NCBI GenBank assembly: GCA_001438205.1
Contig: LICG01000002.1
Location: 1 to 64,000 of the forward strand
Direction: 5' to 3'
From: Cryomorphaceae bacterium BACL7 MAG-120322-bin74
GTDB taxonomy: Bacteria > Bacteroidota > Bacteroidia > Flavobacteriales > Schleiferiaceae
Length of the DNA: 64,000 nucleotides
This document shows positions 1 to 16,226 of this stretch, piece after piece. The notes under the pieces were generated by a model. The model had not been told where the DNA came from and ran no database searches. It was given only the letters and a program-made list of their open reading frames with translations. The position numbers and the translations under genes were made by a program. How positions within the stretch are numbered: the first letter of the stretch is position 1; every line of letters begins with the position of its first letter.

Positions 1-24
1 AATAAAGGCGAAGATATTTTTCAT
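1..24 (-). CDS. Start of a further gene of the surface operon (partial)
   Basis: An ATG on the minus strand at 24-22 overlaps the TGA stop of the PorV/PorQ-family gene in an ATGA arrangement. It reads Met-Lys-Asn-Ile-Phe-Ala-Phe-Ile before the window ends. A Lys followed by hydrophobic residues fits the start of a signal peptide, so the operon probably continues with another exported protein. Nothing more can be said from eight codons. Confidence 0.5.
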
Positions 25-1049
25 GGCTTCCGTGGATAATGTTTGAAGACGAGGCCAAGCGTATTGCGCCACCCGAGGGCATCCGTGCGTTGCACTGCCA
101 TATCTACTCGAATGCCATAGGCGCCAAGTTGACCGCCATCATAGGAAAGCCCCCCCATAGGCCAGGTCTGACCGCGTTGATTGAGGCGACTTCCAAGCCG
201 CATATGGAGACGAGGATTCATTTGATATTCAAGGCCGATACGATAGTTTTCGGCATTGTCATTAGGGTGGACCAGCTGGACAGCAAGTACAATGTGCTGT
301 GTGCCTTGCTTCCAAGGAATGACACTCAGGCCCATGGCAAATTCTGTCGGGAGGGTGTTGGATTCTAGGCCTTCAAGTGGGCTTCGGTTAAATCCAACGG
401 CTTGATACGCCCCCGTTAATGCAGAAGATCCTCCAAAATTCCGGAGAACTACGGCAAAGCGCAAGTCCTTTACGTCTGTGGTATACAAAAAGCCTACATC
501 TGCCGCTGCTGTGTAGGCACTGTAGGCGCCCGTTTGGCTTCCTGTGGTATACACTTCGCCTATGCCCTTTAACGTGAGGCCTAATTGGAATTGCTCGCTC
601 AATCGCTGCGCATAGCTAAGGCCTACAGCACTTTGCGTACTGTAAAGTTGATACCCCGTTCCGCCCGGTTGAAACTCTGTACGTTCAGAAAATCCGGGCG
701 TTTGTAGGTGTTGAATAGCTAAGCCCCAAGCGGCATCTCTTCCTTTTCTAGGTGCCGTGACAAATAACCCAAATTGTTGTGTTCCGCCACTCAGTCCAAG
801 TTGACTCAAGGCGAAGGAGCCTTGTTTTAATGACGCCATGCCGGCGGGATTTTGGCCCATGGAATAGGCATCTCCAGCTAATGCCACGGAGGCCCCCGCC
901 ATGCCGGCGGACCGAACGTTTAGATCGTTTTTCAAGAAAGAAAAGGCGGATTGCCCAGCGCGTTCGCCGCCATAAGAGGGCAACAATTGCCCCGAAGCAG
1001 GAAGGACCATCCCGCTACACAGCGCACATAGGAGGAGGCGCATCTTCAT
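21..1049 (-). CDS. PorV/PorQ-family outer-membrane protein
   Basis: A 342-residue protein with a signal peptide (residues 1-20, ending before Gln). It is followed by the family hallmark near residues 45-73: RSAGMAGASVAL, then NPAGMASL. Alternating beta strands to the C-terminus fit an outer-membrane barrel of the FadL-like PorV/PorQ group. Known PorV proteins act in type IX secretion, shuttling substrates to the attachment machinery; PorQ is related. This copy is the last complete gene of a run containing a protein with a type IX sorting tail and a TonB-dependent receptor, so a role dedicated to those partners is plausible but inferred. Its ATG overlaps the receptor stop (ATGA), which suggests translational coupling. 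Which of PorV, PorQ or a paralogue it is cannot be settled here. Confidence 0.8.
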   Translation of the reverse strand: MKMRLLLCALCSGMVLPASGQLLPSYGGERAGQSAFSFLKNDLNVRSAGMAGASVALAGDAYSMGQNPAGMASLKQGSFALSQLGLSGGTQQFGLFVTAPRKGRDAAWGLAIQHLQTPGFSERTEFQPGGTGYQLYSTQSAVGLSYAQRLSEQFQLGLTLKGIGEVYTTGSQTGAYSAYTAAADVGFLYTTDVKDLRFAVVLRNFGGSSALTGAYQAVGFNRSPLEGLESNTLPTEFAMGLSVIPWKQGTQHIVLAVQLVHPNDNAENYRIGLEYQMNPRLHMRLGSRLNQRGQTWPMGGLSYDGGQLGAYGIRVDMAVQRTDALGWRNTLGLVFKHYPRKP

Positions 1050-3895
1050 AGCTTAAACGTGATGCCATAAAAGATTTGACGGGGGGCTTGATACCTTGAC
1101 GGATCGCGCGGGTCCAGACCACTTTCTTGGGGGCCGTTGAATTCAGGTCGCGGATCACGCCATTCATTGGGCACATCATCGCCATACGCATAAGCACGTC
1201 CCGTAATGGGGTTGATGATTTGTGCATTTTTCCGGTTAAAGAGGTTTTTTACTTCTACTGACAGGGTGATACCGCGTGAAAAAGCTCCGCGCGCGAGGGT
1301 ATAGGACCATTTGCTGTCCCAATTATGCCAAGATTGTGCTTTGGCTGAGAGGTACTGGTCAATTAAAGGGCGGTATTGGGGGCGACCTAAATCATTCACT
1401 CCTGTATATTCATACGGGGTGTAGCGGTAACCAGAAGAGGCATTGTACTGTAGATAACCACTCAAACCGGCTAAGGATAATCGACCTATGCGGAAGGTGC
1501 TGTCTGCACTAAAGAAAAGCCCCCAGTTGGTACTCCAAGGCCGGTCCCAGGCCAAGAAATTTTCGCGGGTTAGCGAGACCTCTCCATTTTGTTCAATTTG
1601 CAAGGCAGACTCGCGTGCGGAGTTGGATTTACCACGTGCCACTTGGAAGCTTCCGTTGCCAAAGAGGCGGAAGTAACGGGCAAAACGGTAATCGACCCCA
1701 AGTTCTAGACCCTGAATTTTGGCGTAATCCTGGTTGATGTACATGGTCTTGGTGACCGGACGTCCCGTTTGGTCTTTAACGATGACGCGACGTGAAACGA
1801 TGTAGTCAAAGCGGTTGTTGTTATAGGCCCCGACGGTGATGCCGAGGTCGCGGTTTAGTGCAGCTTTATAGCCCACTTCATAGGCGACATTAACCTCAGG
1901 ATCCAAGTCAGGATTGCCCAAGAAGCTCAAAAAGCTTCGGTCTTGGTAAACGGGGTCTAGACCCGCATATAAGAAGCGTGGATGCGGTAGACGCATGCTA
2001 TGTCCGTAGTTAAAGTACAATACGTTGTTTGGGGTGACCGGGAAGGAGACATTGATTCTAGGCAAAAGGCGAGCCTTCCAGCGCAAGCCTCCAAGCGCGA
2101 GCGTCTTGTCCATGTAGTCACTGCGAATGGCCGGAATAACAGGCGCAGTGGAGTCTGCAATGGCTCGATCCGCAAAGGTGCCCGGCGCCCAATAATTAAA
2201 GCGTAGTCCAAGGCTAGCCTGGATGCCCTTGTAGTTGATTTGGTCTTCTACAAAAAGCCCCCCCTTCTGGGGATTCACCTTCCAAATGTCATTACTGGAT
2301 CCAATCGAAATGCTGGGGGTACTGAGGCTGTCATTGATCTGAATGGGTGCGCCCACCCAAGGGGCGGTTACGTCTACCCATTGGTATTCATTCCACTGAT
2401 GTTCCCAACCGGTGACTACTTGATGGACGGTTCCGGGATAATAATTGATTTTTCCACGCAACGTGTATTCCTGTGCATAGTGGTCGTGCCACGTGCTGGT
2501 GATCCCTCCATTATTGACAAGCCCATCCCCAGGTCGGATGTAAAAAATGCCGCTAGGGTCATAGGGATTAAACACATCGAGCGGGTAGGAGGCAATATTG
2601 TCCTCATCCAAAATGGCATCGACTGTTGCGCTGCGGAACGGCCTGCCATTGGCATCTGCCCGAAGGTTTGTAAACATTCTGCCCACGCTTAGGGTCAATC
2701 CCACTTTGGGGTTGATTATATGCGTTAGATTGAGGGCGGAAAGGTTGCTATGGTGCGTGTAGGTTGCCGCATTATCCAAATTTTTGCTCCGCGCATATTG
2801 GTATCCAGGGGCTAGGATGGCATCAAAACCAACAATTTGCAGGGTACGTGAATTTTGGTTGATGTTCAGCGAATGCTGATTGGTGATGGTGAGTTTGGTG
2901 CCTCTGCGTAACTGCCAACCAAGTTTGGCTGTATGGGTCCAGCTATTGCTTTGTCGCGGGGCCCACTGGGTTGGATACTCGGGAAAGAGCGATGATTGCA
3001 GTTGGGTTGCCACGTTTGGGAAGTAATCATCCGTGATGTCTGCCGTGGCAGAATTAAAGAGCGTCACTTTGTTCTTCGTTCCCGGAATAGGGAAAGAAAT
3101 ATTCAGTTCCGCTTGGTCAGTATTGAAGCTTGTTGATGGACGCGTGTTATTGGGATTGAGGTAATCACGGGTAATTCTTCCTGAAACTTCTAATCGGTCT
3201 CCTCCTTCGCGAATCTTGGTACTGATTACCCCGGAAGAACCTCCGCCAAATTCTGCAGAGGCACCCCCTGTTGTCACCTTGACACTTTGAATTGCAGAAG
3301 ACTGAACGCGAACCCCAAACCCCGTTCCTGCGAGGGGATCCTGTGCAGAGATGCCATCGACTAGATACTCCGTTTCATACACCCTTGCACCGCGAATTTG
3401 AATCCCGTCATTGGTTTTGGCCACCCCTGCTTGTAGCGAAACGACCTCCTCAACGGAGCGGACATTCATTTGCGCAATGTCTTCGCCCGTAATGGACCGT
3501 TCACTTTTGGCTGATTCAAGATCCACCTGTGCACGTTGGCCAAGGACGGTCACCGTTTGCAAAACGTCTACGGAAGCACTCAATTGGATATTTCGAACCA
3601 GAATTTTGCCGCCCGGAATGCGCAAGCCGTTGATCAACTGGGTTCCATATCCAAGCACCTGGATTTTGATGCTGTAATCACCTGCGGGAACATTGGGGAT
3701 CTGGTATTGGCCATTAAAATCCGTGACAGCGGTCAAGTAGGTACCCACTACAGAAATGCCCACGTTGGGTAGCGTTTCACCTGTTTCGGCATCTTTCACT
3801 ACCCCCTTAAGTATACCCGTTTTTTGCGCAAAACCTGAAAGGCTAAGCACAAAGAACAAGAGGGTCCAAAGGCGTGATTTACCAGGCAAAGTCAT
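1046..3895 (-). CDS. TonB-dependent receptor with carboxypeptidase-like N-terminal domain (receptor 1)
   Basis: A 949-residue outer-membrane receptor. A signal peptide (about 1-23, ending GFAQ) is followed by a carboxypeptidase-regulatory-like domain (about 27-110, with GVVKDAETGETLPNVGISV and DFNGQYQIPNVPAGDYSIK). A plug domain covers about 120-235 (YLVDGISAQDPL), and a long barrel ends in a terminal aromatic-type strand (YGITFKL). Receptors of this class import scarce ligands such as siderophores, oligomers or phosphorylated compounds, using TonB energy. No SusD-like partner lies next to it; instead it sits between a surface lipoprotein (17-base overlap upstream) and the PorV/PorQ gene (4-base overlap downstream). 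The ligand cannot be read from sequence; the neighbouring nuclease-like genes suggest a nucleic-acid or phosphoester product. Confidence 0.88.
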   Translation of the reverse strand: MTLPGKSRLWTLLFFVLSLSGFAQKTGILKGVVKDAETGETLPNVGISVVGTYLTAVTDFNGQYQIPNVPAGDYSIKIQVLGYGTQLINGLRIPGGKILVRNIQLSASVDVLQTVTVLGQRAQVDLESAKSERSITGEDIAQMNVRSVEEVVSLQAGVAKTNDGIQIRGARVYETEYLVDGISAQDPLAGTGFGVRVQSSAIQSVKVTTGGASAEFGGGSSGVISTKIREGGDRLEVSGRITRDYLNPNNTRPSTSFNTDQAELNISFPIPGTKNKVTLFNSATADITDDYFPNVATQLQSSLFPEYPTQWAPRQSNSWTHTAKLGWQLRRGTKLTITNQHSLNINQNSRTLQIVGFDAILAPGYQYARSKNLDNAATYTHHSNLSALNLTHIINPKVGLTLSVGRMFTNLRADANGRPFRSATVDAILDEDNIASYPLDVFNPYDPSGIFYIRPGDGLVNNGGITSTWHDHYAQEYTLRGKINYYPGTVHQVVTGWEHQWNEYQWVDVTAPWVGAPIQINDSLSTPSISIGSSNDIWKVNPQKGGLFVEDQINYKGIQASLGLRFNYWAPGTFADRAIADSTAPVIPAIRSDYMDKTLALGGLRWKARLLPRINVSFPVTPNNVLYFNYGHSMRLPHPRFLYAGLDPVYQDRSFLSFLGNPDLDPEVNVAYEVGYKAALNRDLGITVGAYNNNRFDYIVSRRVIVKDQTGRPVTKTMYINQDYAKIQGLELGVDYRFARYFRLFGNGSFQVARGKSNSARESALQIEQNGEVSLTRENFLAWDRPWSTNWGLFFSADSTFRIGRLSLAGLSGYLQYNASSGYRYTPYEYTGVNDLGRPQYRPLIDQYLSAKAQSWHNWDSKWSYTLARGAFSRGITLSVEVKNLFNRKNAQIINPITGRAYAYGDDVPNEWRDPRPEFNGPQESGLDPRDPSRYQAPRQIFYGITFKL

Positions 3896-5369
3896 TCACT
3901 AAAATTTCTTCCAGCAAGTCTTGCATGGCTTGGTTACTTGAGGCGACGCGATGAAGTTCTACCGAAAAGAAGACTTCATTGATATGGATATTGTTACCGA
4001 GGTATGCGCGCCGTACGGCAACCAAATTATCCCCTTGCCAGCCACTTAATTTGGTCAGCTGCGCCCGATAAAAAGGCTGCGCATCTGCCGAAGCCACTAA
4101 AGGACTGATGCCGATAACGATACTTGCAGGGTGTAGATCAGGATAAAGGCCAGCCACCTGGGGAACTAAGGCAGAATCGGGCACCAACCGAACTTGGCCA
4201 GACGAGGTGACAATCCCATCCATTGGAAAAGCGCCGATGTAGGGGGTAAAGTCTGTGTTCGGCCCAAAAGCGGTGCTGGTCATCAACTTACCCCCTTGGG
4301 TTGTAAAAGACTGCAAAGCAGCAGCCATATGCGCTAACAAGGGTTGGGTTGTCCCTGAAACCGGGTCTAATGCATTGTCGGAATTGGTCACGGCCAACAC
4401 CCGGTCATACTGGGAGAGGATGTGTCGGAAAGTGGGGTTCCAATAGTAGGGCCGCAACTCACCTCCGTTGGCATTTAGGTCAAGAATATCATAACTAACC
4501 GAAATAGAATCTAGCCAACCTTGGTAACTCGCGGTTACCGCAGCCGTTTGACCACTCACCATCAAAAGGTCCGATGTGGGCCGAACCAAGGTGACGGCCA
4601 ATGCCGAGTCAACGGCACTTACCGCTCCGGCTATGTCGGAAATACGCACCTGAAAAATGTTCTCAGCGTTTTCGACCAATCCCTCTATGCCATTAGCTGT
4701 AGGCTGAAGGGCGTTGCCGTAATACAGGGATGCCGTCGTCCCCATCCCGCCCCCAGCATCGGGTTCTAGGACAAACGTGAGCATGGGTTGCTTTGGATCA
4801 ATGGGGATCCAATTGCCCCCGTTAAAGCGGATTTCAGCGCCAGAAATACTTTCATTGCCATCTGGATCCGTTGCGGTCCAGCGGTAGGTTAATACCCCGA
4901 GGGCTTGTCCTAAGGATTGACTTTCTTGGTCAACCTCAGCCACAGGCGGGGCGTTTTTGAGCGGGAAAACCAGTTTGGCGGGGCTTGGGTCTTCTGCCCC
5001 TTGATTGTCAATGGCGCGGATATACAGGGTGATGTCTGCTGTGTCACTTCCCGCAGGAATACTAAATAAAAAGGTGCTATCCTGCGAAGTGGTAAGCTTC
5101 CAATTCAAACTGTCTAGAGAGAGGGCATAGCCTGTGATGTACCCATCGATGTCTGTGCCATACCAACTCATTTGCACCTTAGAATTGAGTCGGTCTGCGC
5201 CGCTGCGTTCAATAGATTTTACGGCCAGATGTGTATCGGGTGCCTGATTTTCTAATGCTTCACCACGTTCACATCCTGAGATCAAAAGCCCCGCCACCCA
5301 TATAGCCGAACTCCATGCGTTCTTGCGGAACGCATGGAGCACATAGCCATAGTCTTGGGTAAGATACAT
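3879..5369 (-). CDS. Surface or periplasmic lipoprotein with Ig-like and GATase-like regions
   Basis: A 496-residue protein with a basic N-terminus, a hydrophobic stretch and a lipobox (LISGC, Cys33), so it should be a lipoprotein. The N-terminal half looks like repeated fibronectin/Ig-like modules (WYGTDIDGYITGYALSLD; YRWTATDPDGNES). The C-terminal half, from about residue 265, resembles a Rossmann-like class I glutamine-amidotransferase or ThuA-type fold (YDILDLN, AVTNSDNALDPVSG, GGKLMTS); this is my reading of the pattern, and I see no clear catalytic Cys. The start at 5369 lies 17 bases after the previous stop. A perfect 12-bp inverted repeat lies inside the signal-peptide codons. The gene overlaps receptor 1 by 17 bases, so the two are probably made together. 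The function is unknown. Confidence 0.7.
   Translation of the reverse strand: MYLTQDYGYVLHAFRKNAWSSAIWVAGLLISGCERGEALENQAPDTHLAVKSIERSGADRLNSKVQMSWYGTDIDGYITGYALSLDSLNWKLTTSQDSTFLFSIPAGSDTADITLYIRAIDNQGAEDPSPAKLVFPLKNAPPVAEVDQESQSLGQALGVLTYRWTATDPDGNESISGAEIRFNGGNWIPIDPKQPMLTFVLEPDAGGGMGTTASLYYGNALQPTANGIEGLVENAENIFQVRISDIAGAVSAVDSALAVTLVRPTSDLLMVSGQTAAVTASYQGWLDSISVSYDILDLNANGGELRPYYWNPTFRHILSQYDRVLAVTNSDNALDPVSGTTQPLLAHMAAALQSFTTQGGKLMTSTAFGPNTDFTPYIGAFPMDGIVTSSGQVRLVPDSALVPQVAGLYPDLHPASIVIGISPLVASADAQPFYRAQLTKLSGWQGDNLVAVRRAYLGNNIHINEVFFSVELHRVASSNQAMQDLLEEILVNDFAW
5311..5339. repeat. Perfect 12-bp inverted repeat within the lipoprotein signal-peptide codons
   Basis: The arms are 5311-5322 (ctccatgcgttc) and 5328-5339, separated by a 5-base loop. 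In the minus-strand mRNA this forms a strong hairpin about 30 bases into the lipoprotein gene and about 50 bases after the previous gene ends. No T-run follows, so it is not a standard intrinsic terminator. It could be a processing or translation-control hairpin, or chance constrained by codons. Confidence 0.75.
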
Positions 5370-5386
5370 GTCCGCGGGAAGGATCC

Positions 5387-7597
5387 TTAATCCACTAAAA
5401 TAATGCGCACCACTTGGCGACGATCACCGGATTGTACTTCGAGCAGATAGGCGCCACGTGAAACAGAGGTAGTCGAAATGTCGGTGGTAGCAAACTGTGT
5501 TTTTCCAGAGGCCATGGGGCGACCCAAAGCATCCCAAAGGGTGTACTGGCTGCCAATAGGAGCCTCTAAAGTGAGGAGGTCGCTCGCTGGATTCGGATAG
5601 GCTCTGAGGGACAATGCTTCGGGGTGGGTTAAGCCAACGCTGCTCTGGGGCAAATCGGTAGAATCCAACGTGACATTGATGCCAATGAAGTCATCATTGT
5701 TTCTTGGGATAACACGGAAATTATTGAAACCATAGAAGCAGATTCCCTCAACAGCCGTCATACTCATGGTGTCGCTTACGACAATGGGACTCACCTCCAT
5801 CATGCCATCCAGGGTGTCATAGATAGGATCGGTGATCAACTGAACAAAGAGGGATGAAAACGAGGTGGCCGATTGGCGACCCGCAAGAACGAGTGCACGG
5901 TTCCAATAGCCTGCATTGGCTGTGTTTGAGACGGCATAATCGCCAAAGCCTAAGTTGGTTTGTGCAACAACCAAGGGCTGCTGAGAAGGGTCCTCAAGGC
6001 GCACATAACAACCTTCCCATTGCTCCCAAGCATAGCCGTATTTTTCGGCAGAGTCAGAAGGATTGACTACGGATGCGACGGGCATGATGCGGTTACCTGT
6101 CTTGCTGATAGAGGCTACATTGAGGCGGGTCATACCATAGTATTCTTCTACGGTTCCGGTTACTTGAACTTCTTCCTCACGGAAGAATTGGGTAATGCCT
6201 GAGCCGACACACCAAATGCCACTCCAAGGGCCCCCGCCTTCATCTTGAATATACAAGAAGCCAAGGTCATGTTGCTTGGTTGAGGCAGTGACAACCCCAG
6301 TGACCGTTACGTTTTGGGTGTTGTAGGGAGAGTTGCCGTTACTGGCTAATGAATATTGAATGTCTTGGATGATCGCACCATTGGCGCGGACTGTATAGTA
6401 GTCCACATTGGGTTGAACTTGCCCAACAGGGGTGGTGGGATAGTAGGAGACATTGCCTTCATTGTCCCAGGCCTTGATGTAGTAACGCACCAAGGTGCCG
6501 AGGAGTTGGCTCGGGAGTACAGCCTCATACTCATCCGTTGAACCTGAGGCCAGGGCCATATTCATTTTAATGAACTGGGTTGGCATCAAGCTAGTATCTG
6601 CGGTGTGGTAGACAAAAACAGAATCCACGCTGCCGTCAAAATCCGTGATATTGCAAACCAAGTCTACGGTTTGGTTGGGTGTTGGGACCATAGGGTCGCG
6701 CTCAAAGTTGGCGATGTAAGGTGGGGCATAGGCAATCACATAATGGGTAGAATCAAAAGGATTTAATTCATAACCGCGTGAACCAGAGCCCACAAGGCAA
6801 CCATTGCCATCATGACGAACGACACCTTTCAGGCTAGAATAGAAGGTTCCAGGAACGGGTGTCATAAAAGAACCAGTTGATTGAGGAGAGTATGGATTCA
6901 CGGTCTGCCATGAAGGAAGCTTTTGTGCCAAGAAGCGATCAGAAACATTGATTTTGTTTCCGTTTCCGTCGACCACATTAAAGCTAATTCGGTTACCAGA
7001 AAAGGGGATGACCTCGGTTACGGTCACGTTATTAAACTCAACAAAACTATTTTCCCATGGCTCACCCGTGGTAAGAATGTTGACACGTAGGGGATCATTG
7101 AGGTCGCCCACGGTGATTTGCGCAGGGGTAGGCGCAGGACGTGATCCAATGACCTGTAGTGAATTTCCATCGATGGCTTCTAGTTGGGTGCCGTTGTTAT
7201 AGGCGCCTACACGGCCCGTAAACTTCACCAAATCACCAGGGAGTAAATATTCTACGTTGGGTAAGGGCAATAGTTGACCTTGCGCATTGGTATACACCCC
7301 CATGCATTCCATTCCGCGGAATGAACCTGCTACACCTTGTGCCACCGTGTCAACTAAGAAAAAGAAAGGGCGGTGACCCCCTTGCACAGAGCCGGACGCC
7401 ACTTCAGACACATCCCCAGGAGTCACGACGATGCCATAGGTCATCACGGTATCCCCCAGATAGGCGGAGGTATCATTACACGCGGAAAGGTCAGCAGCTG
7501 AAACATACTGAATATCCGTGATAGAGGTGTATGTCAGGCCTTGGCCGAAAGCCATCATGCCTGAAAGGGCGAGGGCCCAGGTGAATAATTGTTTCAT
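5387..7597 (-). CDS. Type IX secreted protein with OB-fold-like (DUF5689/YhcR-type) regions
   Basis: From the ATG at 7597 this is a 736-residue protein with a clean signal peptide (MKQLFTWALALSGMMAFGQ). An ATG seven codons upstream (7618) overlaps the preceding stop as ATGA and is a possible alternative start. Two regions resemble OB-fold domains often attached to secreted nucleases: about 35-140 (GIVVTPGDV, LLPGDLVKFTGRVGAYNNG) and about 410-520 (VTVTGVVTAS, EEEVQVTGTVEEYYGMTRL). An Ig-like stretch lies between them. The last 75 residues form a type A sorting domain (LRAYPNPASDLLTLEA, then SRGAYLLEVQSG), so the protein should cross the outer membrane by type IX secretion. I see no nuclease active site, so it may bind nucleic acid or a partner. 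Confidence 0.78.
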   Translation of the reverse strand: MKQLFTWALALSGMMAFGQGLTYTSITDIQYVSAADLSACNDTSAYLGDTVMTYGIVVTPGDVSEVASGSVQGGHRPFFFLVDTVAQGVAGSFRGMECMGVYTNAQGQLLPLPNVEYLLPGDLVKFTGRVGAYNNGTQLEAIDGNSLQVIGSRPAPTPAQITVGDLNDPLRVNILTTGEPWENSFVEFNNVTVTEVIPFSGNRISFNVVDGNGNKINVSDRFLAQKLPSWQTVNPYSPQSTGSFMTPVPGTFYSSLKGVVRHDGNGCLVGSGSRGYELNPFDSTHYVIAYAPPYIANFERDPMVPTPNQTVDLVCNITDFDGSVDSVFVYHTADTSLMPTQFIKMNMALASGSTDEYEAVLPSQLLGTLVRYYIKAWDNEGNVSYYPTTPVGQVQPNVDYYTVRANGAIIQDIQYSLASNGNSPYNTQNVTVTGVVTASTKQHDLGFLYIQDEGGGPWSGIWCVGSGITQFFREEEVQVTGTVEEYYGMTRLNVASISKTGNRIMPVASVVNPSDSAEKYGYAWEQWEGCYVRLEDPSQQPLVVAQTNLGFGDYAVSNTANAGYWNRALVLAGRQSATSFSSLFVQLITDPIYDTLDGMMEVSPIVVSDTMSMTAVEGICFYGFNNFRVIPRNNDDFIGINVTLDSTDLPQSSVGLTHPEALSLRAYPNPASDLLTLEAPIGSQYTLWDALGRPMASGKTQFATTDISTTSVSRGAYLLEVQSGDRRQVVRIILVD

Positions 7598-7614
7598 GAT
7601 AGGGGAGTTATGGG

Positions 7615-9744
7615 TCATTTTAAAACGGTGAATTGGCCGGTATAAAAGTCCCCTGTAACAAGGTCTTCAACGGCGTAAAAGTAGATGCCTCTTGCCAAAA
7701 TTTGGCTTTGGTCGGTAAGTAGATCCCAGGCGTGTTCACCGCCAGAAAATTGACGGTCGGTTGGGGTTTCACCAGCAAATGTTTGAAACCAACGAATATC
7801 CTCTCCACGCCAGTCTGCATGGTGCTCAAATTGGTCCATGATATCTCCCGCAGGGGAGCTGATGGTTATGCGACAATCGCCCGGAAGATTGGCAAAGATG
7901 AGCTTACGGCTTTCTTCTTGGAAGTTTGAAACACCTTCCCATGCAGCCCCTGCATAATAAGGGTTAGGATACACAAAGGGAGGGTAGTTTTTCATGCTCG
8001 GATTGGCCGGGGTTCCTGCAAAAGCCCGCACATCATTGGCCAAAAAGCTGGACTCTAAGGATTCTAATTGGGTGGCGGGATTCCCTTGGTCAAATGCGGT
8101 GATGGCCACAGCATGTTGCCACCCATTAGGCAAGTTTTCTAAGGCATAGTGGTATTGATAGGCCGTGGTATCTCCAGCAAAATAAAGAGGTTCTGGCAGG
8201 GCAATATCTGCCATCCCAGTTTCATAAAACAATCCGTTGCCCTCAATATCGTATTCTGCAGCACGGACAAAATCTTCAGAAAGATTCTGACTTCCCTGTA
8301 CATCAAAGCCGAGCCGACTGAGGTACACGCGGTAACCTTCAAAATCCCTTTTCTGGGTAATTGGGTCTATGCTTTCTTCTGCATTTCTGGACCAGAATAA
8401 GTCAATGCGGTGATCACCTGGTACAGCGCGCATTCTGGGGGCATCAGGCGGACTAGGGAGAATAAAGCGGGTAATCTTCCCATCACCATCTCGGTCTTCG
8501 CCATCATCTAATATGCCGTTAAAATTGATGTCTTCGCCATTGTAGGCAACCTGGGCCCACTGGGCGTTGCCGATAAAGCGTTCTTTTTGTGCAGCGGTAT
8601 TGGCGGCGTTGGGTTGGCCGTCATCTACTTTTTTGCCCAAAACAAAGGCAAAAGCCAAGGTAATTTCATCACCAGGCGCGAAGGCAGAGAAGGGGCCAAC
8701 ACTAACGAGGTCAGAACGATTTCCACTAGCGTTGAGTAATGCTTGAATGTCCATACCCACCCCGTTTTGACAATCAACGCCTGTGGGATCATTCCAGCAG
8801 GGGTTTTGGTTGAGACCTTCGGTCATCTTCACATACCGCTGGGGATCGGATGTTGGAAAAAAGAACAAGGCTTGACCTGAATTATTGAAGATCCATGCAT
8901 TGTAATGGCCCTTGAAGCCAGGAGAAATGTCGGGATGTTTGAATCCAGTCTTGTCTTCAGCTCCCAAGAATTTCTGACCGATGTAAGAGTTGGTTAGCCC
9001 GACGTCGCCTGTGGCATCATAGCAATAGGCCATGTGCAGGCTGTCCAAGAAACCATTTCCCCCCTGAGAATAAAAGGCCGCTCCACCGGACCCGGCAGGG
9101 GTAGCATTCACATTGCGCACCACGGTGTTTGCCCAAAGGGCAATATGCAAGTCATCATAGGTCTCTGGGCCAACATTTTTAATCGTCATATTGGCGATCA
9201 CAAAAAAGTCTGAAAACCGGTAATTCCAATTATAGGTTTCCATCTCAACCGATACGCCCATGGGATTGGTATGCCCACTGATCGGAATAGAGGTACCGGG
9301 AATTAGCAGATTGGCATCCGTAAAGCTGCTCTTAAAGTCTTGGTGAGAAATAGCCTCTGGTCGAAAATTAGGATTGTCACGCAAAGAAGAAATTTCCTGC
9401 ATACCGCCGAGGGTATTGGTAAATTCAAAACCACCTCGGCCTGGCGCATATCCTTGCGGAGCATCATAGGCAGAAGTGCTCACGCGGACCGTGCCACTTC
9501 CATCTATACCGCCAATCCAGATGCCCGATTCAAAAAGATGTTCTGTGCCCGATCCAGCGGGGTATTCTCCCGATGGATTGCCGCTGCCATCTTTATATCC
9601 TCTGAAGGCATTGCCAAACGTACCCATATTGGTCACAGTCATCCGGACGTTGCTCGCGGTGGTGAGTCGCTCCACAAAGTTCTGCCCAAATGCGGAGAAG
9701 GAGAAAGACGCCAACATGGCCAAGGGGAGAATATAGAAACGCAT
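7615..9744 (-). CDS. Large exported protein with fibronectin-like region and calcium-type Asp loop
   Basis: A 709-residue protein with a signal peptide (about 1-20, ending SAFGQ). The long N-terminal beta-rich part (ESGIWIGGIDGSG, HIALWANTVV) resembles exported proteins found beside PorV-like and TonB genes in Bacteroidota and related phyla. Near residues 408-425, the Asp-rich stretch DINFNGILDDGEDRDGDGKI looks like EF-hand/dockerin-type calcium loops. A fibronectin-like region follows (DHRIDLFWSRN). The C-terminus (VYPNPYYAG, then ARGIYFYAVE) resembles the last strands of a type IX sorting or FlgD-like domain, but it is not a textbook CTD. It overlaps both neighbours by 1-4 bases. I do not recognise an enzymatic function; an adhesive or scaffold role is a guess. 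Confidence 0.65.
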   Translation of the reverse strand: MRFYILPLAMLASFSFSAFGQNFVERLTTASNVRMTVTNMGTFGNAFRGYKDGSGNPSGEYPAGSGTEHLFESGIWIGGIDGSGTVRVSTSAYDAPQGYAPGRGGFEFTNTLGGMQEISSLRDNPNFRPEAISHQDFKSSFTDANLLIPGTSIPISGHTNPMGVSVEMETYNWNYRFSDFFVIANMTIKNVGPETYDDLHIALWANTVVRNVNATPAGSGGAAFYSQGGNGFLDSLHMAYCYDATGDVGLTNSYIGQKFLGAEDKTGFKHPDISPGFKGHYNAWIFNNSGQALFFFPTSDPQRYVKMTEGLNQNPCWNDPTGVDCQNGVGMDIQALLNASGNRSDLVSVGPFSAFAPGDEITLAFAFVLGKKVDDGQPNAANTAAQKERFIGNAQWAQVAYNGEDINFNGILDDGEDRDGDGKITRFILPSPPDAPRMRAVPGDHRIDLFWSRNAEESIDPITQKRDFEGYRVYLSRLGFDVQGSQNLSEDFVRAAEYDIEGNGLFYETGMADIALPEPLYFAGDTTAYQYHYALENLPNGWQHAVAITAFDQGNPATQLESLESSFLANDVRAFAGTPANPSMKNYPPFVYPNPYYAGAAWEGVSNFQEESRKLIFANLPGDCRITISSPAGDIMDQFEHHADWRGEDIRWFQTFAGETPTDRQFSGGEHAWDLLTDQSQILARGIYFYAVEDLVTGDFYTGQFTVLK

Positions 9745-11048
9745 TATGGCAGCTTAACGGTTTTGGCTAAGCGTCCTTCCGGCTGCAAAGAGAACAAGAG
9801 AAGCCCTTGTGAGGGCAATGTGTTGGGCAAGCGAAAACGCAGCGCAGTGATCCGACCCTTGGCAATCGTTCTGCCCAAAAGGTCCGCGACTACCCAAGAC
9901 GCACCCATGGCCAGATGATCCACATCCACTATGTAGCCATCTTGGCGATTGCCTAAAACTTGCAGAGGCAGGGCCGCATGTTCTTCCATCGAAACCTGCA
10001 GGCGCGTGACATCAATGTCGACATAGACAGGCAGGTGGTCACTCATTTCGTATAAAGCTGTGAGGACGTTGGCCGGTACAGCATTATTGGTAGGAGCGTT
10101 AATGGCGGCATTAAAATGAAGACCATCATTACCGACAGGAGTCAACGAGCCCGAAACATAGGTCATTTTTGCGCTGCCATTGACGACATCGTCGCTAAAC
10201 AGGACATGGTCAAAACGATCATCCAAACCGCCCCCCGAAAAACAGCCATTATTGGTTGCTCCATCCCGGGTGCTCTGCGAGTGTAGGTTTCTAAACGTAT
10301 AATTGTTGTTCCAGTTTCCAGGCTGGCTTTCAGGGTCGTAAAAACGAAGGCTAGTAGTCGAATAGTTGAGGAGATTTTGAAAGCCTGCTTCCTGGCTTTT
10401 GGGCATATTTAAGTCTCCTGCCAAAAAATAATTATCGCCCACATTGTGGCTTTGCAAGTAACTCATGATGGCCGCTGTTTCTCTATTGCGGTCCGCAATA
10501 TCACTGGAGGAAGAGCCTGCTTTAAGGTGGACAGCAAATACAGTAAATGTGACTGTGTCAGGGTTGATGGCGAGCAGACTGTCCTTGTAGAAAAAACGTT
10601 TTACGTCTATTCCGCGCACAAGATTTTGGTTGCTTACATCTTTGGTAATCAGATCTTGATAGAGCAGCCCGAGCTTGTTTTGGTCGAAGTAAATGCCATT
10701 GGTCAACGAAGAGCCATTGGAAAAGAAGTCGGTCTTTTCCCACCGGGTCTCTCCATTGATATTGAGGGCATAGGTCAAAATGCGCCCATGCGCTGTCGTA
10801 TTATCCCCATTGATTTCGTTGCATACGAATAGATCGGGCTGTGTATACGTGACAATGGTATGCAGATAGGCTTCCTTACTCACGGCATTGTTGCTGGAGC
10901 TTGGGCAATAACTTGTGAAGTTGCGGTAATTCAGCAAGTTATACGTCATGATTCTTATGCGCTCCGGCGCTTGACCCCAAGCGCTATTCCCTATCAGAAA
11001 GAGAGGGATAGCCAAAAAAAAGGGAGGGAAAATATTGCTGCGTCGCAT
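9744..11048 (-). CDS. Secreted endonuclease/exonuclease/phosphatase (EEP) family protein
   Basis: A 434-residue protein with a signal peptide (about 1-26, ending AWGQ) and the EEP (DNase I-like) signature set in order: IMTYNLLNY (about 33-41), a Glu in LFVCNEINGD (about 78), FAVHLKAGSS (about 172), LAGDLNMPK (about 211) and SDHLPVYVDI (about 336). These supply the Asn, Glu, His, Asp-x-Asn and Asp-His residues for metal-dependent phosphodiester hydrolysis. The last 75 residues are beta-rich (VADLLGRTIAKGRI, LPSQGLLLFSL) and look like a weak type IX sorting domain. Substrates in the family range from DNA and RNA to phosphoinositides; extracellular nucleic acid is the likeliest here given the OB-fold protein two genes on. 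The start codon lies 7 bases after TACCTTTA, a near-consensus promoter element (11056-11063). Confidence 0.82.
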   Translation of the reverse strand: MRRSNIFPPFFLAIPLFLIGNSAWGQAPERIRIMTYNLLNYRNFTSYCPSSSNNAVSKEAYLHTIVTYTQPDLFVCNEINGDNTTAHGRILTYALNINGETRWEKTDFFSNGSSLTNGIYFDQNKLGLLYQDLITKDVSNQNLVRGIDVKRFFYKDSLLAINPDTVTFTVFAVHLKAGSSSSDIADRNRETAAIMSYLQSHNVGDNYFLAGDLNMPKSQEAGFQNLLNYSTTSLRFYDPESQPGNWNNNYTFRNLHSQSTRDGATNNGCFSGGGLDDRFDHVLFSDDVVNGSAKMTYVSGSLTPVGNDGLHFNAAINAPTNNAVPANVLTALYEMSDHLPVYVDIDVTRLQVSMEEHAALPLQVLGNRQDGYIVDVDHLAMGASWVVADLLGRTIAKGRITALRFRLPNTLPSQGLLLFSLQPEGRLAKTVKLP

Positions 11049-11110
11049 AACGAGCTAAAGGTACTTCTTGCTGAACCAACATGGTCATCAAAGCCAACTT
11101 TCTTCCAGCT

Positions 11111-14014
11111 TTATAAAGAGAAAGTTAAGCCGGCGCTTAAGCCCCAACCTGGCGCATAACGGCTGAAGATTTGATCCTGCGCACCAAAGGATTTGTAAAC
11201 GCTTAAAACGTTGTCATTCAATAGGTTCATCGCACGCAGTTTAAGGTCAATCCCCTTTTCTTTGCCCACCTTGGTAGTGAAACTCATGTTGAGACTTTGG
11301 AAGGGCTGCGTATAGACATCTGGAAACAAACCAAGGCCTACAATCTGGAGGGTAGATCCTTTTACATTGTAGTACACGCCAAAATTGGTTTTGCTCTCGG
11401 GATGCGTGTAACTGAATCCTCCGTTCAGCACATAGGGACTTTGCCCAGCCATGGCGCGTGTATTTATGACGGTTTGACCATCGCGCTCGTAACTTTTGCG
11501 CGATTGATATTCCACATCACTCATGGTGATCCTTGAGTCAATCACGGTGATGTTGCCATTGAAGAAAAAGTTCTCCAGAGAGGGGCTAAGTGCGGAGAAG
11601 CTTGCATTCCATTCCATTTCTGCGCCGAACATGGTTCCCTGTCCCACATTTCGTGGTTGAAACTCGGTAGACGTTTGTTGCTCTGCAATGCGCACCATTT
11701 CAATGGGATTACGGAAGCCTTTGTAAAATCCACTGATGGAGAACATCTGGCCAGCGTCCATGAATTTTTCCCAGCGTATATCTACATTGTTGATGCGGGT
11801 TTCAACGAGGTTACCAGACCATGCCGCATATTCAAAGAAGGAACCATTGAAGATGCGGTTGGTGATGGGGTCAATGATTTGGGCAAAGGAGAGTTCTTTG
11901 AAAGACGGGCGTGCAATCGTTCGGGTGGCAGAAAAACGCAAGTTCTGACTTTCGTTCAACGAGTACATCACATTCAAGGATGGAAAAAGGTCCAATGAAT
12001 TGAGCACCACGTCATTGGTTAAATTCTTCCCGTTGGTGTAATCACCACTTGCCCACGACTGATCGCGTCCCGTATGGCGCTGGACAAAGTGCTCTACCCG
12101 AAGACCGACGATGGCTTTTGTGCGCAGATTCAAAGAAAATTCTGTATGAACATAAGCATGGGCCGTGTTACTATTAGAGGCGTACTCATTGGGGTTGGGA
12201 TCATTATTGCCTGATTGGTAATAGACGCGATTGGGGTAATTGGGATAAATGTTTTCAGGATTCAGGACTTGGTTCGGGTCATCGTTGCTCCAATTCTGCT
12301 GTCCAAAAAACTGCATATCAAAAAGCAGGATTTCATAGTGCCGCCATTTGAAAGCATCACCGGCGCCATATTTCAATTTAGCTGCTTCATCAAACAACGT
12401 AAACTTCTTCGTCACATCGTACCGGAATGGCACGTTTACTTCTTGCAAATAGCGCCAGATTCTCGAGGGATTGCCACCGGCCCCAGCCTGAAAAAAGGTA
12501 TCAAGCGTTTGATAGGTAAAGGCCGTTTTGCGAATATCAGGATCGGTGGACAAAGACAGGGTGGGGGATATTCGCCAGTCAATCTCGGTCCCTGTTTCGG
12601 GCTTTACAACCGTGCCATTGATTAAAAGATTGGTCAATGATCGCTGATTGTATTCAAGGTTATTGGAAAAGGCTTTATACCCAGATTGCCCTACTGCACT
12701 AGCATCGTTGTCAATCCAAAATTGTCCCGCACGACTTTCGCCATTTTGCAGGTGCATCAAGGTTGCTCGAACTTTCTTTAAGTTCGTCTTATAGGCAAGG
12801 CCCAAAACGCCCCCAATGAGGGTATTGTGTTCACCCAACTGTCCTTGCTGTACGGTGGCATACCGCATCTCATAGACAGAGGGGTCAAGGTAACGTTGGT
12901 ATTCCCCATAGGTGACATCATCGTAGTAGGTATAGTTGCTCTTATAACTGAGAGAAAAGACATACCCCAGTTTGGGTACCTCTCCTGAAGCCTTCGTCCT
13001 ATTTTTCCACTCCCATTGATTGCCGGCGGAGTATCCTACTTTCATATCCAAGAAGGAGCGCTGACGTGTAGCACCTAAAGTGGGATTGAAGCTTTGAACA
13101 AAACGATTCACCTCCGCATCAGAAAAGAAAATAGGGGTCGGAATACTGCTTTGGCGCGCCAAAGCGGGTAAGCGTCGGGTGCCGTCATCAAAGCCCAGAA
13201 AATCTAGCGAGCCTCCTTCGTAACGCAAGAAGGCTGGATTAAGGTTCATGGTAGGAGTAAAGCTGCTGCTGAACGAAATAGAACCTACCTTCTTGTCAGG
13301 AAATGCTTTGGTTTCAATGTTCAATAAACCGCCTGTAAAGTCAGCTGGTTGGTCCGCTGTAAAGGTTTTGCTAACCACAATGTTGTTCACCAAATCCGTT
13401 GGGAAGATATCCATCTGGATCGTGTTTTTATCAGGATCTAGTCCAGGGATATCCATGCCGTTCAGGGTCGTTTTAGAATAACGATCCCCCAATCCACGGA
13501 TGTACACATATTTCCCCCCCTCTACGGTCACGCCAGTCACCCGTTTCGCCGCCTCAACGGCAGTGCCATCTCCAATTTGGGCTATACGCGCAGAAGAAAT
13601 GCCATCGACCATAGCTGCAGATTTGCGCTTCAGGGTGAGTAAGGCGATTTCCGAATTGCGGTTTACTTCCGCTATAATCGTGACTTCGTCCAGCTTCAGG
13701 TTATCCTCAGGAAGAAGGCCCAATTCACCCACAAGCGTGATTTCACCCGCCGTCACTTTTACCTCGATCAATTTGAGGGTCCTGTAGGTGAAGTAAGCCA
13801 CCTCAATGGCATATGTACCAGGTTGTGCATTTAGGCTAAAATGGCCATCAAGATCTGTCGCGGTATTTCCACTTCCACAATTATTGCAGATGACGGCTGC
13901 GCCGATAATGGTTTCCCCTGTTTCCGCATCCAGCACGGTGCCGCGTACCGTTCCAACTTGAGCAAAAGTGGAAAGCGCAAAGAGGAAAAAACAAAGGGAA
14001 ATGATCGCGCGCAT
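11111..14014 (-). CDS. TonB-dependent receptor with carboxypeptidase-like domain (receptor 2)
   Basis: From the ATG at 14014 this is a 967-residue outer-membrane receptor starting MRAIISLCFFLFALSTFAQ. A longer frame to 14065 would begin inside a terminator hairpin and is rejected. A carboxypeptidase-regulatory-like domain (about 22-105, GTVLDAETGETIIGAAV) precedes the plug. The plug has the strongly conserved stretch GKYVYIRGLGDRYSKTTLNG and GLDPDKNTIQMDIFP, followed by the barrel, which ends WGLSAGLTFSL. This receptor type is distinct from SusC and typically lacks a SusD. It follows a beta-helix lipoprotein gene, from which it is separated by an intrinsic terminator, so it depends on readthrough or its own promoter. 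The ligand is unknown; phosphorus-containing compounds are my inference from the adjacent PhoB-like system. Confidence 0.88.
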   Translation of the reverse strand: MRAIISLCFFLFALSTFAQVGTVRGTVLDAETGETIIGAAVICNNCGSGNTATDLDGHFSLNAQPGTYAIEVAYFTYRTLKLIEVKVTAGEITLVGELGLLPEDNLKLDEVTIIAEVNRNSEIALLTLKRKSAAMVDGISSARIAQIGDGTAVEAAKRVTGVTVEGGKYVYIRGLGDRYSKTTLNGMDIPGLDPDKNTIQMDIFPTDLVNNIVVSKTFTADQPADFTGGLLNIETKAFPDKKVGSISFSSSFTPTMNLNPAFLRYEGGSLDFLGFDDGTRRLPALARQSSIPTPIFFSDAEVNRFVQSFNPTLGATRQRSFLDMKVGYSAGNQWEWKNRTKASGEVPKLGYVFSLSYKSNYTYYDDVTYGEYQRYLDPSVYEMRYATVQQGQLGEHNTLIGGVLGLAYKTNLKKVRATLMHLQNGESRAGQFWIDNDASAVGQSGYKAFSNNLEYNQRSLTNLLINGTVVKPETGTEIDWRISPTLSLSTDPDIRKTAFTYQTLDTFFQAGAGGNPSRIWRYLQEVNVPFRYDVTKKFTLFDEAAKLKYGAGDAFKWRHYEILLFDMQFFGQQNWSNDDPNQVLNPENIYPNYPNRVYYQSGNNDPNPNEYASNSNTAHAYVHTEFSLNLRTKAIVGLRVEHFVQRHTGRDQSWASGDYTNGKNLTNDVVLNSLDLFPSLNVMYSLNESQNLRFSATRTIARPSFKELSFAQIIDPITNRIFNGSFFEYAAWSGNLVETRINNVDIRWEKFMDAGQMFSISGFYKGFRNPIEMVRIAEQQTSTEFQPRNVGQGTMFGAEMEWNASFSALSPSLENFFFNGNITVIDSRITMSDVEYQSRKSYERDGQTVINTRAMAGQSPYVLNGGFSYTHPESKTNFGVYYNVKGSTLQIVGLGLFPDVYTQPFQSLNMSFTTKVGKEKGIDLKLRAMNLLNDNVLSVYKSFGAQDQIFSRYAPGWGLSAGLTFSL

Positions 14015-14048
14015 GGATGAACCTTTTAAGGTGCTGCAAAATTCCAAT

Positions 14049-14080
14049 AAAAAAAATGCCCGCACCTTGGTGCGGGCATT
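14049..14080 (-). terminator. Intrinsic terminator after the beta-helix lipoprotein gene
   Basis: The stem arms are 14055-14064 (aatgcccgca) and 14071-14080, optionally extended by two G-C pairs into the loop. On the minus strand the hairpin is followed by eight T (the A-run at 14049-14056). It lies 31 bases after the lipoprotein stop and 35 bases before the receptor 2 start, so it would reduce receptor transcription relative to the lipoprotein. Confidence 0.9.
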
Positions 14081-14110
14081 GACTTAACCATTTGTTAATG
14101 GTTTAGAAAC

Positions 14111-15295
14111 TTACTGGATAATTCCAGCCTGTGCTGCCCATGTCCAGCTGAAGACAGAGGTATTCGCTTTTGGTGTTGTGCCGGCGGTGATGCCCGGGTG
14201 CGTTCCCCCGTTCTTTAAGAAATTAGACACCGTGTCTACATTCAAAACAATGTCCGCATAGAGGACGCCAGGAGCATCCAAACGGTTAATGATTTGGCCA
14301 GGAAGGATGTCCGTGATATAAATGCTTTCTAGACTCACAAGAGAATTGGCATCCGTGTTGATGAGGTCCTCAGATGTCACGTTGTCATCAGAAGCTTGAA
14401 TGTTGCCATTTTTGATGGTGTGGCTCACTGCATAGGTGCCTTCTGGACCGTCCAATTCAAAGCAGTGTCCTTTGGGTGTGATGATCACAAAGTTGTCCAA
14501 TGTGCCCCCCCACGCTTGGTCGGTATCAAAGCCATCGTCGCCCACATTCCAAGAAACTATATTGGTGATGTTGATCATGCCACCCCATACTTCAATGCCA
14601 TCATCTTGGTTAGACACGATTTCAATGTTTTCAATAGTGGTACCTGAGCCCACTCCGCCTAAAGAAAGTCCGTTAATTTCATTGCCTGCACCAATGTTGG
14701 CACCACCGTGACGGATGGAAATGTACTGTAAGACGCCAGAATTATCCGCGTTGTCGGTACCCCCATATAATCCATTGGGGTCCGATGTGGGAATCCCTTC
14801 AATTTGGACCTCATTCACATCGCCAGATGCATTGGAGGCAGAAATAATGCCTTTTCCTAGGATGATCACGCCACCCCAAAGACCGGTAACTGTTGGATCT
14901 AAATTGGGGCTTTTAAAGTCCCCCGAAGCAACTTGGATGGGGGAGATTTCGTCAGCGATTGTGGTAAATATAATCGGTAAAGAAGGAGTCCCTATAGCCA
15001 TAAGTTTTGCACCTCGTGCAATCAACAATGCGGTGGCATTGGCACCTGTTCCTGCCTCTCCTTTGATGATCGTGCCCGCCTCAATAGTCAAGGTTGTACC
15101 ATTTGTAACGGTGATGCGGCCACCCAATTGGTAGATCGTATCCGCATACCATGTTTGGTTAGAAGTAAGGTTGCTAGACACAATTTTTGTCATGTAATCA
15201 CTCGAAGGCGGATCCACGGGGGGAGTGGATTCACATGCGACCAAGCCCATCAGAATAACGGCGCTCAGGGCGGTAAATTTGTACATTGTAGACAT
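14111..15295 (-). CDS. Beta-helix surface lipoprotein
   Basis: A 394-residue protein with a lipoprotein signal (MGLVAC, Cys21; an alternative Met lies three codons in). The body is a repetitive right-handed beta-helix: GGRITVTNGTTLTIEAGTII (about 58-77), then further rungs with WGGVIILGKG, LQYISIRHGG, IENIEIVSNQDDGIEVWGG and GDDGFDTDQAWGG. Asp-Asp-Gly repeats suggest calcium or ligand binding along the helix. No catalytic set of a pectate lyase is evident. Proteins of this kind are found beside TonB-dependent receptors in Bacteroidota, and here receptor 2 follows. It is the first gene of the minus-strand locus, divergent from the two-component system, with a TAnnTTTG element 30 bases upstream. 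The likely role is as a surface ligand-binding partner of the receptor; this is inferred. Confidence 0.75.
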   Translation of the reverse strand: MSTMYKFTALSAVILMGLVACESTPPVDPPSSDYMTKIVSSNLTSNQTWYADTIYQLGGRITVTNGTTLTIEAGTIIKGEAGTGANATALLIARGAKLMAIGTPSLPIIFTTIADEISPIQVASGDFKSPNLDPTVTGLWGGVIILGKGIISASNASGDVNEVQIEGIPTSDPNGLYGGTDNADNSGVLQYISIRHGGANIGAGNEINGLSLGGVGSGTTIENIEIVSNQDDGIEVWGGMINITNIVSWNVGDDGFDTDQAWGGTLDNFVIITPKGHCFELDGPEGTYAVSHTIKNGNIQASDDNVTSEDLINTDANSLVSLESIYITDILPGQIINRLDAPGVLYADIVLNVDTVSNFLKNGGTHPGITAGTTPKANTSVFSWTWAAQAGIIQ

Positions 15296-15324
15296 TCTTT
15301 GATTGGTATTAATGGATTAGGATG

Positions 15325-15332
15325 CAAACGTA
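15325..15332 (-). promoter_or_regulatory. Bacteroidota -7 promoter element for the beta-helix lipoprotein operon
   Basis: The minus strand reads TACGTTTG, a perfect match to the TAnnTTTG consensus, with the start codon at 15295. No good -33 TTTG lies at the usual distance (the nearest TTTG is 28 bases further up), which would fit an activator-dependent promoter. Confidence 0.55.
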
Positions 15333-15408
15333 CCCGGCCTATGTTAGGACAGGTTTAATTCAAAGTGAAGAAATCGACTTAAACCCAAAGGGGTGTATTT
15401 ATTAATAG

Positions 15409-15471
15409 TTTGCTAACAATGGACCAGTCTTTTGTTAAGCCAAGCCAAAAAACTTGTTATGGATTTGTTAA
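15409..15471. promoter_or_regulatory. Phased octamer direct repeats, candidate PhoB-like operator
   Basis: The octamers TTTGCTAA (15409-15416), TTTGTTAA (15431-15438), CTTGTTAT (15453-15460) and TTTGTTAA (15464-15471) lie in the same orientation, starting 22, 22 and 11 bases apart. Direct half-sites with 11-bp spacing are the geometry of E. coli PHO boxes bound by PhoB dimers. The array sits between the divergent response-regulator gene and the surface operon, ending 27 bases before the plus-strand TACTTTTG element. Use by this regulator is inferred. Confidence 0.55.
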
Positions 15472-15497
15472 AACGGATTCAGTCTGCCGCAAAGCGG

Positions 15498-15505
15498 TAC
15501 TTTTG
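15498..15505 (+). promoter_or_regulatory. Bacteroidota -7 promoter element for the two-component system
   Basis: TACTTTTG matches TAnnTTTG exactly and ends 34 bases before the response-regulator ATG at 15540. A short inverted repeat (ccgc aaa gcgg, 15487-15497) lies just upstream. No clear -33 TTTG is present, so the phased octamers may substitute for it through an activator. Confidence 0.55.
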
Positions 15506-15539
15506 ATTAATTCTTAAACGTTTGAATTAGATAGTTGTC

Positions 15540-16220
15540 ATGAGCAAAATCACCATCCTAGTTGTGGACGATGATCCCGACATCCGTGAGTTCATCTCTT
15601 ACAACCTAGCCAAAGAGGGCTTCCATGTCGAGACAGCTAAAAATGGCGCGGACGGTGTGGCGATGTGTAAAAAACATAAACCAGACTTGGTTTTATTGGA
15701 TGTGATGATGCCTGGAATGGATGGTATGCAGGCCTGTGAGGCCATCCGTGCAACGCCAGAAATAGCGCATACGCTTATTGCCTTTTTAAGCGCACGTGGA
15801 GAAGACTATGCACAAGTTGCAGGATTTGACTCAGGTGCAGACGACTACATCACGAAGCCGATTCGTCCAAAAGTATTGGTCAGCCGCATCAAGGCGTTGC
15901 TCCGCAGAAACGCGAAATCAGAAGAAGTGAAATCATCTATTGTTGTGCGGGGGGATTTGACAATTGACCAAGAAAAATATCAAGTTTGCCAAGCAGACCG
16001 CGTTGTCGAGATGCCACGCAAAGAATTTGAACTATTGCAACTGCTGGCCAGCAAGCCAGGGAAGGTATTCTCGCGAGATTCTATCATGGACCGTGTATGG
16101 GGAACGGAGGTCATCGTAGGCGGTCGTACGATCGATGTGCATATCCGCAAAATCAGAGAAAAAATTGGCGATAATCGCATCAAAACGATCAAGGGTGTTG
16201 GGTATAAGTTTGAAGAATAA
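15540..16220 (+). CDS. OmpR/PhoB-family response regulator
   Basis: A 226-residue regulator. The receiver domain (1-120) has the acidic pocket at 10-12, phospho-acceptor Asp54 (LVLLDVMMPG), Ser84 and Lys106 (DDYITKP). A winged-helix DNA-binding domain (about 130-226) has the typical end GGRTIDVHIRKIREKIGDNR and KGVGYKFEE. The kinase gene follows 6 bases later, so they form a cognate pair. The kinase has no periplasmic sensor domain, which is the usual make-up of PhoB/PhoR-like pairs in Flavobacteria; I therefore favour a phosphate-type regulator, with moderate confidence. The gene is divergent from the surface operon and has phased operator-like repeats upstream, consistent with autoregulation and control of that operon. 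Confidence 0.9.
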   Translation: MSKITILVVDDDPDIREFISYNLAKEGFHVETAKNGADGVAMCKKHKPDLVLLDVMMPGMDGMQACEAIRATPEIAHTLIAFLSARGEDYAQVAGFDSGADDYITKPIRPKVLVSRIKALLRRNAKSEEVKSSIVVRGDLTIDQEKYQVCQADRVVEMPRKEFELLQLLASKPGKVFSRDSIMDRVWGTEVIVGGRTIDVHIRKIREKIGDNRIKTIKGVGYKFEE

Positions 16221-16226
16221 AGGCAC

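Follow-up and report, generated by a model that had tools for sequence, protein, structure and literature searches.

The window, a stretch of 64,000 nucleotides, starts at the first base of its contig, C2, in a 1.74 Mb genome. Eight genes lie on the minus strand, running from 15295 down to 21; neighbouring genes overlap or lie no more than about 60 bp apart, and a response regulator/kinase pair is divergent from them (15540–17297). The initial annotation had read this arrangement as one candidate phosphate-responsive locus for cutting extracellular nucleic acids and importing the products. Coordinates and domain checks placed every gene that it named, and we confirm that observation while finding the interpretation built on it partly supported. 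The genes are as follows:

15540–16220, plus strand: PhoB-type response regulator, assigned by synteny and below the equivalog cut-off
16227–17297, plus strand: PhoR-type histidine kinase, assigned by synteny and below the equivalog cut-off
14111–15295, minus strand: LP394, lipoprotein of a PhoBR/PUSIV-like module, Fjoh_0546 'FII' type (pectin-lyase-like)
11111–14065, minus strand: TBDR984, receptor of the PhoBR/PUSIV-like module, homologue of the Fjoh_0545 type, TonB receptor family above cut-off
9744–11048, minus strand: EEP434, secreted endonuclease/exonuclease/phosphatase-fold enzyme, gene 1 of the nuclease operon
7615–9744, minus strand: P709, highly conserved secreted protein with a predicted N-terminal beta-supersandwich, a calcium-type loop and an Fn3-like region
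5387–7618, minus strand: OB743, T9SS-tailed; its OB-fold-like regions are akin to the N-terminal part of ExeM/NucH nucleases
3879–5369, minus strand: LP496, lipoprotein with two predicted Fn3-like domains and a class I glutamine-amidotransferase-like domain
1046–3895, minus strand: TBDR949, TonB-dependent receptor, TonB receptor family above cut-off
21–1049, minus strand: PorV/PorQ-family barrel, candidate T9SS cargo shuttle (NF033709, 109 bits against a cut-off of 90)

The stretch consists of two joined modules: PhoB/PhoR with LP394 and TBDR984, and a nuclease operon of EEP-P709-OB743-LP496-TBDR949-PorV plus a seventh gene. Among the named loci, PhoBR adjoins the nuclease operon only in the window's genus-like group (15 loci by automatic count), with LP394 in 3 of these. 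Elsewhere in the Schleiferiaceae, whose members include Phaeocystidibacter luteus, Thermaurantimonas aggregans and Schleiferia thermophila, LP394-TBDR984 stands divergent from PhoB-PhoR at a separate place (12 loci outside the window's genus). Since LP394, TBDR984 and PhoBR are conserved as their own module and meet the operon only in the window's group, we ruled out one locus with one function; half of the parts first listed fall outside the nuclease system.

By homology and shared synteny, the first module corresponds to the phoBR operon, or PUSIV, of Flavobacterium johnsoniae (Fjoh_0541–0546), in which phosphate depletion strongly raises expression of both the receptor and the lipoprotein (PMC8115612). 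In both, the genes for a TonB receptor and an FII-type lipoprotein are transcribed divergently from a PhoB-PhoR pair, and the same layout recurs in the 12 Schleiferiaceae loci and in two Flavobacteriaceae loci, L299 and L303, where the set also includes a glycosyltransferase-like gene and matches Fjoh_0541–0546. The order of the two genes differs (LP-TBDR in the window, TBDR-LP in F. johnsoniae), and the likeness covers only 11111–17297, as the nuclease operon is no part of PUSIV. The regulators miss the equivalog cut-offs (PhoB 216 of 296 bits, PhoR 212 of 334 bits), although their synteny marks them as PhoBR of the F. johnsoniae type. The PusCD systems PUSI and PUSII (PMC8115612) likewise combine a TonB receptor with phosphodiesterases and a phosphate link, but the window's eight proteins include no SusD homologue (domain checks of LP394 and LP496 found no SusD family) and have T9SS-secreted parts and PorV instead.

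We examined the promoters for PhoB-box-like repeats. Upstream of LP394 homologues lies a box of the form TTAACA-N5-TTAACA, and the window holds these features:

15342–15359, minus strand: candidate PhoB box ATTAAACCTGTCCTAACA upstream of LP394, 9.4 bits on a motif learnt from other Schleiferiaceae
15325–15332, minus strand: Bacteroidota-type −7 element TACGTTTG, 9 bp after the candidate box
15454–15470, plus strand: another box-like direct repeat, TTGTTA-N5-TTGTTA, oriented towards the regulator gene, 12 of 12
14055–14080, minus strand: intrinsic-terminator-like hairpin between LP394 and TBDR984, with an 11-bp stem and a T run

A matrix trained solely on LP394-promoter sites, applied to regions upstream of EEP, scores above the 95th percentile of 192 control promoters in 11 of 44 loci that carry no regulator gene (p=3e-4) and in 4 of 12 in the PhoBR-bearing group. 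The matrix also finds, within the top 1% (p <= 0.01), the promoters of receptors from the same family in four Flavobacteriaceae loci, two of which are of the PUSIV type. The pairing of a box (8 bits or more) with a −7 element behind it occurs in 14 of 60 EEP regions and 2 of 195 controls, mostly at spacings of 19–21 and 30 bp, an arrangement that was noticed before it was counted. These box tests are exploratory, and related loci do not count as independent cases. Most EEP promoters have no clear box, and a genome-wide search with the exact pattern gave few matches, mainly LP394 promoters, and was uninformative about the regulon. The EEP operon of Schleiferiaceae is probably under at least partial PhoB control, and in the window's genus, where it directly follows the PhoBR/PUSIV-like module, it may share that module's transcript; no terminator-like hairpin is listed between TBDR984 and EEP. 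A phosphate link has two indirect supports, the adjoining module and the box motif.

The nuclease operon itself is deeply conserved. EEP homologues lead to the identical six genes in identical order in nearly all family members, and across 80 named loci the successive pairs are kept far above chance: EEP-P709 in 59/60, P709-OB743 in 78/78, OB743-LP496 in 67/68, LP496-TBDR949 in 62/63, TBDR949-PorV in 47/55 and PorV-seventh gene in 47/47. The conserved neighbourhood across Bacteroidota that the initial annotation had put forward for checking is real. The seventh gene, beside PorV, encodes a beta-propeller-like lipoprotein of about 400 residues, and 29 of 34 homologues show NHL-like repeats. The window's genome has the gene at the first bases of another contig, C10, indicating that the operon was broken by assembly. 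Two Flavobacteriaceae EEP homologues (L043 and L044) were set aside as not of the same system, their neighbours, including uvrA and a lysine-decarboxylase-family gene, being unrelated.

P709 occurs at E < 1e-50 in 110 of 395 sampled Bacteroidota genomes, many of them outside the window's taxonomic order. There the sequence P709-OB743-LP496-TBDR949-PorV-lipoprotein is kept and EEP does not stand upstream; the upstream neighbours outside the order are mostly housekeeping genes, with LysM/SLT in 6 of 42 proteins. Three loci (L144, L152, L156) have, in place of EEP, a gene reading like polyphosphate kinase that immediately precedes P709 on the same strand, and six (L119, L123, L132, L143, L148, L151) carry just P709-OB743-LP496-TBDR949, with EEP, PorV and the seventh gene not adjoining. 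Literature searches found no description of the set from EEP to the seventh gene, which is common to many Bacteroidota and apparently undescribed.

Outside the window's order, 22 of 36 loci carry a phosphodiesterase directly after the seventh gene (12 EEP, 8 PLD, 2 NPP) and 14 have no enzyme there. Among 440 other ORFs the same enzyme classes account for 3 (Fisher p about 2e-25, without correction for relatedness of the loci). At this one position three unrelated phosphodiesterase folds, EEP, two-HKD PLD and nucleotide pyrophosphatase, replace one another, which makes the phosphodiester cutting claimed initially probable, most likely on nucleic acids. Both HKD motifs are intact in 9 of 9 PLD enzymes, and these proteins also bear a DUF5689/OB region and a T9SS tail. 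Their nearest solved relatives are the mitochondrial cardiolipin hydrolases (Zucchini/PLD6) and the Nuc endonuclease. Zucchini and PLD6 are RNA nucleases, although the name cardiolipin hydrolase that such enzymes also carry is a point against a nucleic-acid reading. The NPP is closest to ENPP1 and venom phosphodiesterase, with the lipid-type ENPP2/6/7 ranking lower. The nearest characterised relatives of the three folds are mostly nucleic-acid or nucleotide enzymes. In the window's genus, the seventh gene of one locus is followed by a 1301-residue T9SS protein (L204:3618-7523) with Lamin-tail, three DUF5689, OB-fold and plastocyanin-like domains. Some loci (L224, L239, L240) have two candidate enzymes or large OB/DUF5689 proteins in succession behind the seventh gene.

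EEP434 matches PF22669 below that family's cut-off, but its EEP nuclease residues N37, E78, H174, D212, N214, D280, D337 and H338 are invariant in 17 homologues, in agreement with the complete catalytic motifs reported earlier. These homologues match MnuA (10/17), ExeM/NucH (7/17) and sphingomyelinase (1/17), the nearest named families being the MnuA and ExeM/NucH nucleases, and 14 of the 17 have a T9SS tail. OB743, first described as a type IX secreted protein with OB-fold-like regions, carries a Por_Secre_tail above cut-off; its OB fold reaches 20 of 27 bits, below the Pfam cut-off. It matches the N-terminal region of ExeM/NucH extracellular nucleases at E=1e-13, but with 51 of 300 bits it lies far below the cut-off of NF033681. 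Those nucleases combine an OB region with an EEP enzyme in one protein, whereas the window has OB and EEP as separate T9SS-tailed proteins with five conserved partners.

P709 is 57–86% identical to its homologues and keeps the calcium-type loop GED.NFNG.LD.GED.DG.G.IT. The window's protein matches no Pfam family, with one weak match among 45 members, and a sequence search of solved structures found no convincing relative of it and none of LP496. In a predicted model (pLDDT 82.7), the N-terminal domain of P709 resembles the supersandwich of GH94/GH116-type enzymes (Z 19.4 over 255 residues, rmsd 3.3), that is, of sugar phosphorylases and glycosidases. LP496, likewise outside any Pfam family, is modelled (pLDDT 88.3) with Fn3-like domains and a GATase-like domain (Z 14.1) that resembles a glycosidase accessory domain. 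These matches speak to fold, not function. TBDR949 is unusually conserved (56–88% identity in 16 homologues), and the P709/receptor core is far better conserved than the enzyme. Median net charges of −35 for P709, −32 for OB743 and −24 for LP496 mark strongly acidic proteins, which is odd for, and does not favour, direct binding of DNA. The receptor's basic charge was ruled out as a sign of DNA because it is not conserved.

Type IX cargo status is indicated by the OB743 tail, the tails of the EEP homologues and the presence of SprA in 40 of 40 P709 carriers, including the window's own genome. The translocon gene sprA begins at 59644, near the window end, and extends beyond 64000.

Surface secretion and the TonB receptors fit the design of cutting outside and importing that the initial annotation had suggested. 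EEP and OB743, perhaps with P709, would be secreted by the type IX system, the PorV-like barrel perhaps serving as shuttle for the cargo. The secreted enzymes would work beside the surface lipoproteins, possibly in a complex, and hydrolyse phosphodiesters outside the cell, and the resulting oligo- or mononucleotides would enter through the TonB-driven receptor TBDR949. An outer-membrane machine of this kind, acting on extracellular phosphodiesters, most likely DNA or RNA, and in Schleiferiaceae probably at least partly under PhoB control, is in our estimate slightly better than an even bet, and phosphate-linked scavenging of nucleic acids at the surface is the best reading we can infer. Counting against it are the 14 of 36 loci whose seventh gene has no enzyme beside it and the 18 of 77 named loci with no EEP upstream.

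The same surface machine could act on another substrate, such as the head groups of phospholipids or a phosphorylated glycan (teichoic-acid-like or phosphomannan), with TBDR949 importing the glycan or glycerophosphate part. The acidic surface proteins and the sugar-enzyme-like fold of P709 leave room for other phosphodiester polymers, the LP496 domain points the same way, and the EEP, PLD and NPP folds each include lipid-acting members. However, the nearest characterised relatives of the enzymes act mostly on nucleic acids or nucleotides, OB regions are present and the cluster's conserved genes include no glycosidase, and we regard this substrate class as rather unlikely. We find it very doubtful that P709, LP496, PorV and the receptor form a general T9SS surface-display platform with the nuclease as one interchangeable cargo and no nutrient role. 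A type IX system in every one of the 40 carriers, an enzyme position that varies or stands empty and a core conserved beyond its enzyme would suit such a platform, but it does not predict that all enzymes at that position belong to three phosphodiesterase folds. Were nucleic-acid scavenging correct, its seven ordered genes, with a P709 outside Pfam and swapping nuclease-like enzymes, would offer a genetic handle on the consumption of environmental DNA by Bacteroidota. These are prominent DNA degraders in sediments (PMC8289736), and our literature searches found no description of an outer-membrane route for this consumption. The PhoBR link makes a phosphorus role directly testable, and a parallel in Riemerella does the same for DNA uptake.

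In Riemerella anatipestifer, natural transformation depends on the pair RA0C_RS04915/04920, a CarboxypepD_reg protein of the outer membrane and a surface protein with DUF5689 (PMC8459023), and it is reduced in tonB mutants (PMC8383284). The operon might be the functional match of this pair, an outer-membrane apparatus for pilus-free competence, possibly feeding, whose nuclease would trim DNA or release it so that it can enter by a TonB-driven route; we consider this quite unlikely. It would agree with a shared make-up of CarboxypepD_reg barrel and OB-type surface protein, with the DUF5689 domain carried by the PLD versions and, in the window's genus, by the gene that follows the seventh, and with a divergent secreted EEP-type gene, not mentioned in the passages of PMC8459023 consulted, beside relatives of the pair in 7 of 8 Flavobacteriaceae/Weeksellaceae genomes (L289–L296; exception L292). 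DprA, present in 39 of 40, is nearly universal and was discarded as not discriminating. Against the match, OB743 lacks homology to RA0C_RS04920 (hhalign E 0.13; DUF5689 in 1 of 16 OB743 homologues, E 0.006), and the receptors align over 181 columns, the regulatory domain and plug alone, and not over the barrel. It is unlikely, in our view, that the operon represents a phylum-wide, pilus-independent, TonB-driven machine for nucleic-acid uptake in which nucleases are interchangeable and which would serve for feeding, perhaps also for transformation, in Bacteroidota without the Riemerella-type pair. Strong relatives of the Riemerella-type receptor and strong P709 never occur in the same sampled genome, but this mutual exclusion tracks a few deep clades, and because homology between the proteins stops at the plug and regulatory domain, we treat the resemblance as an analogy in make-up.
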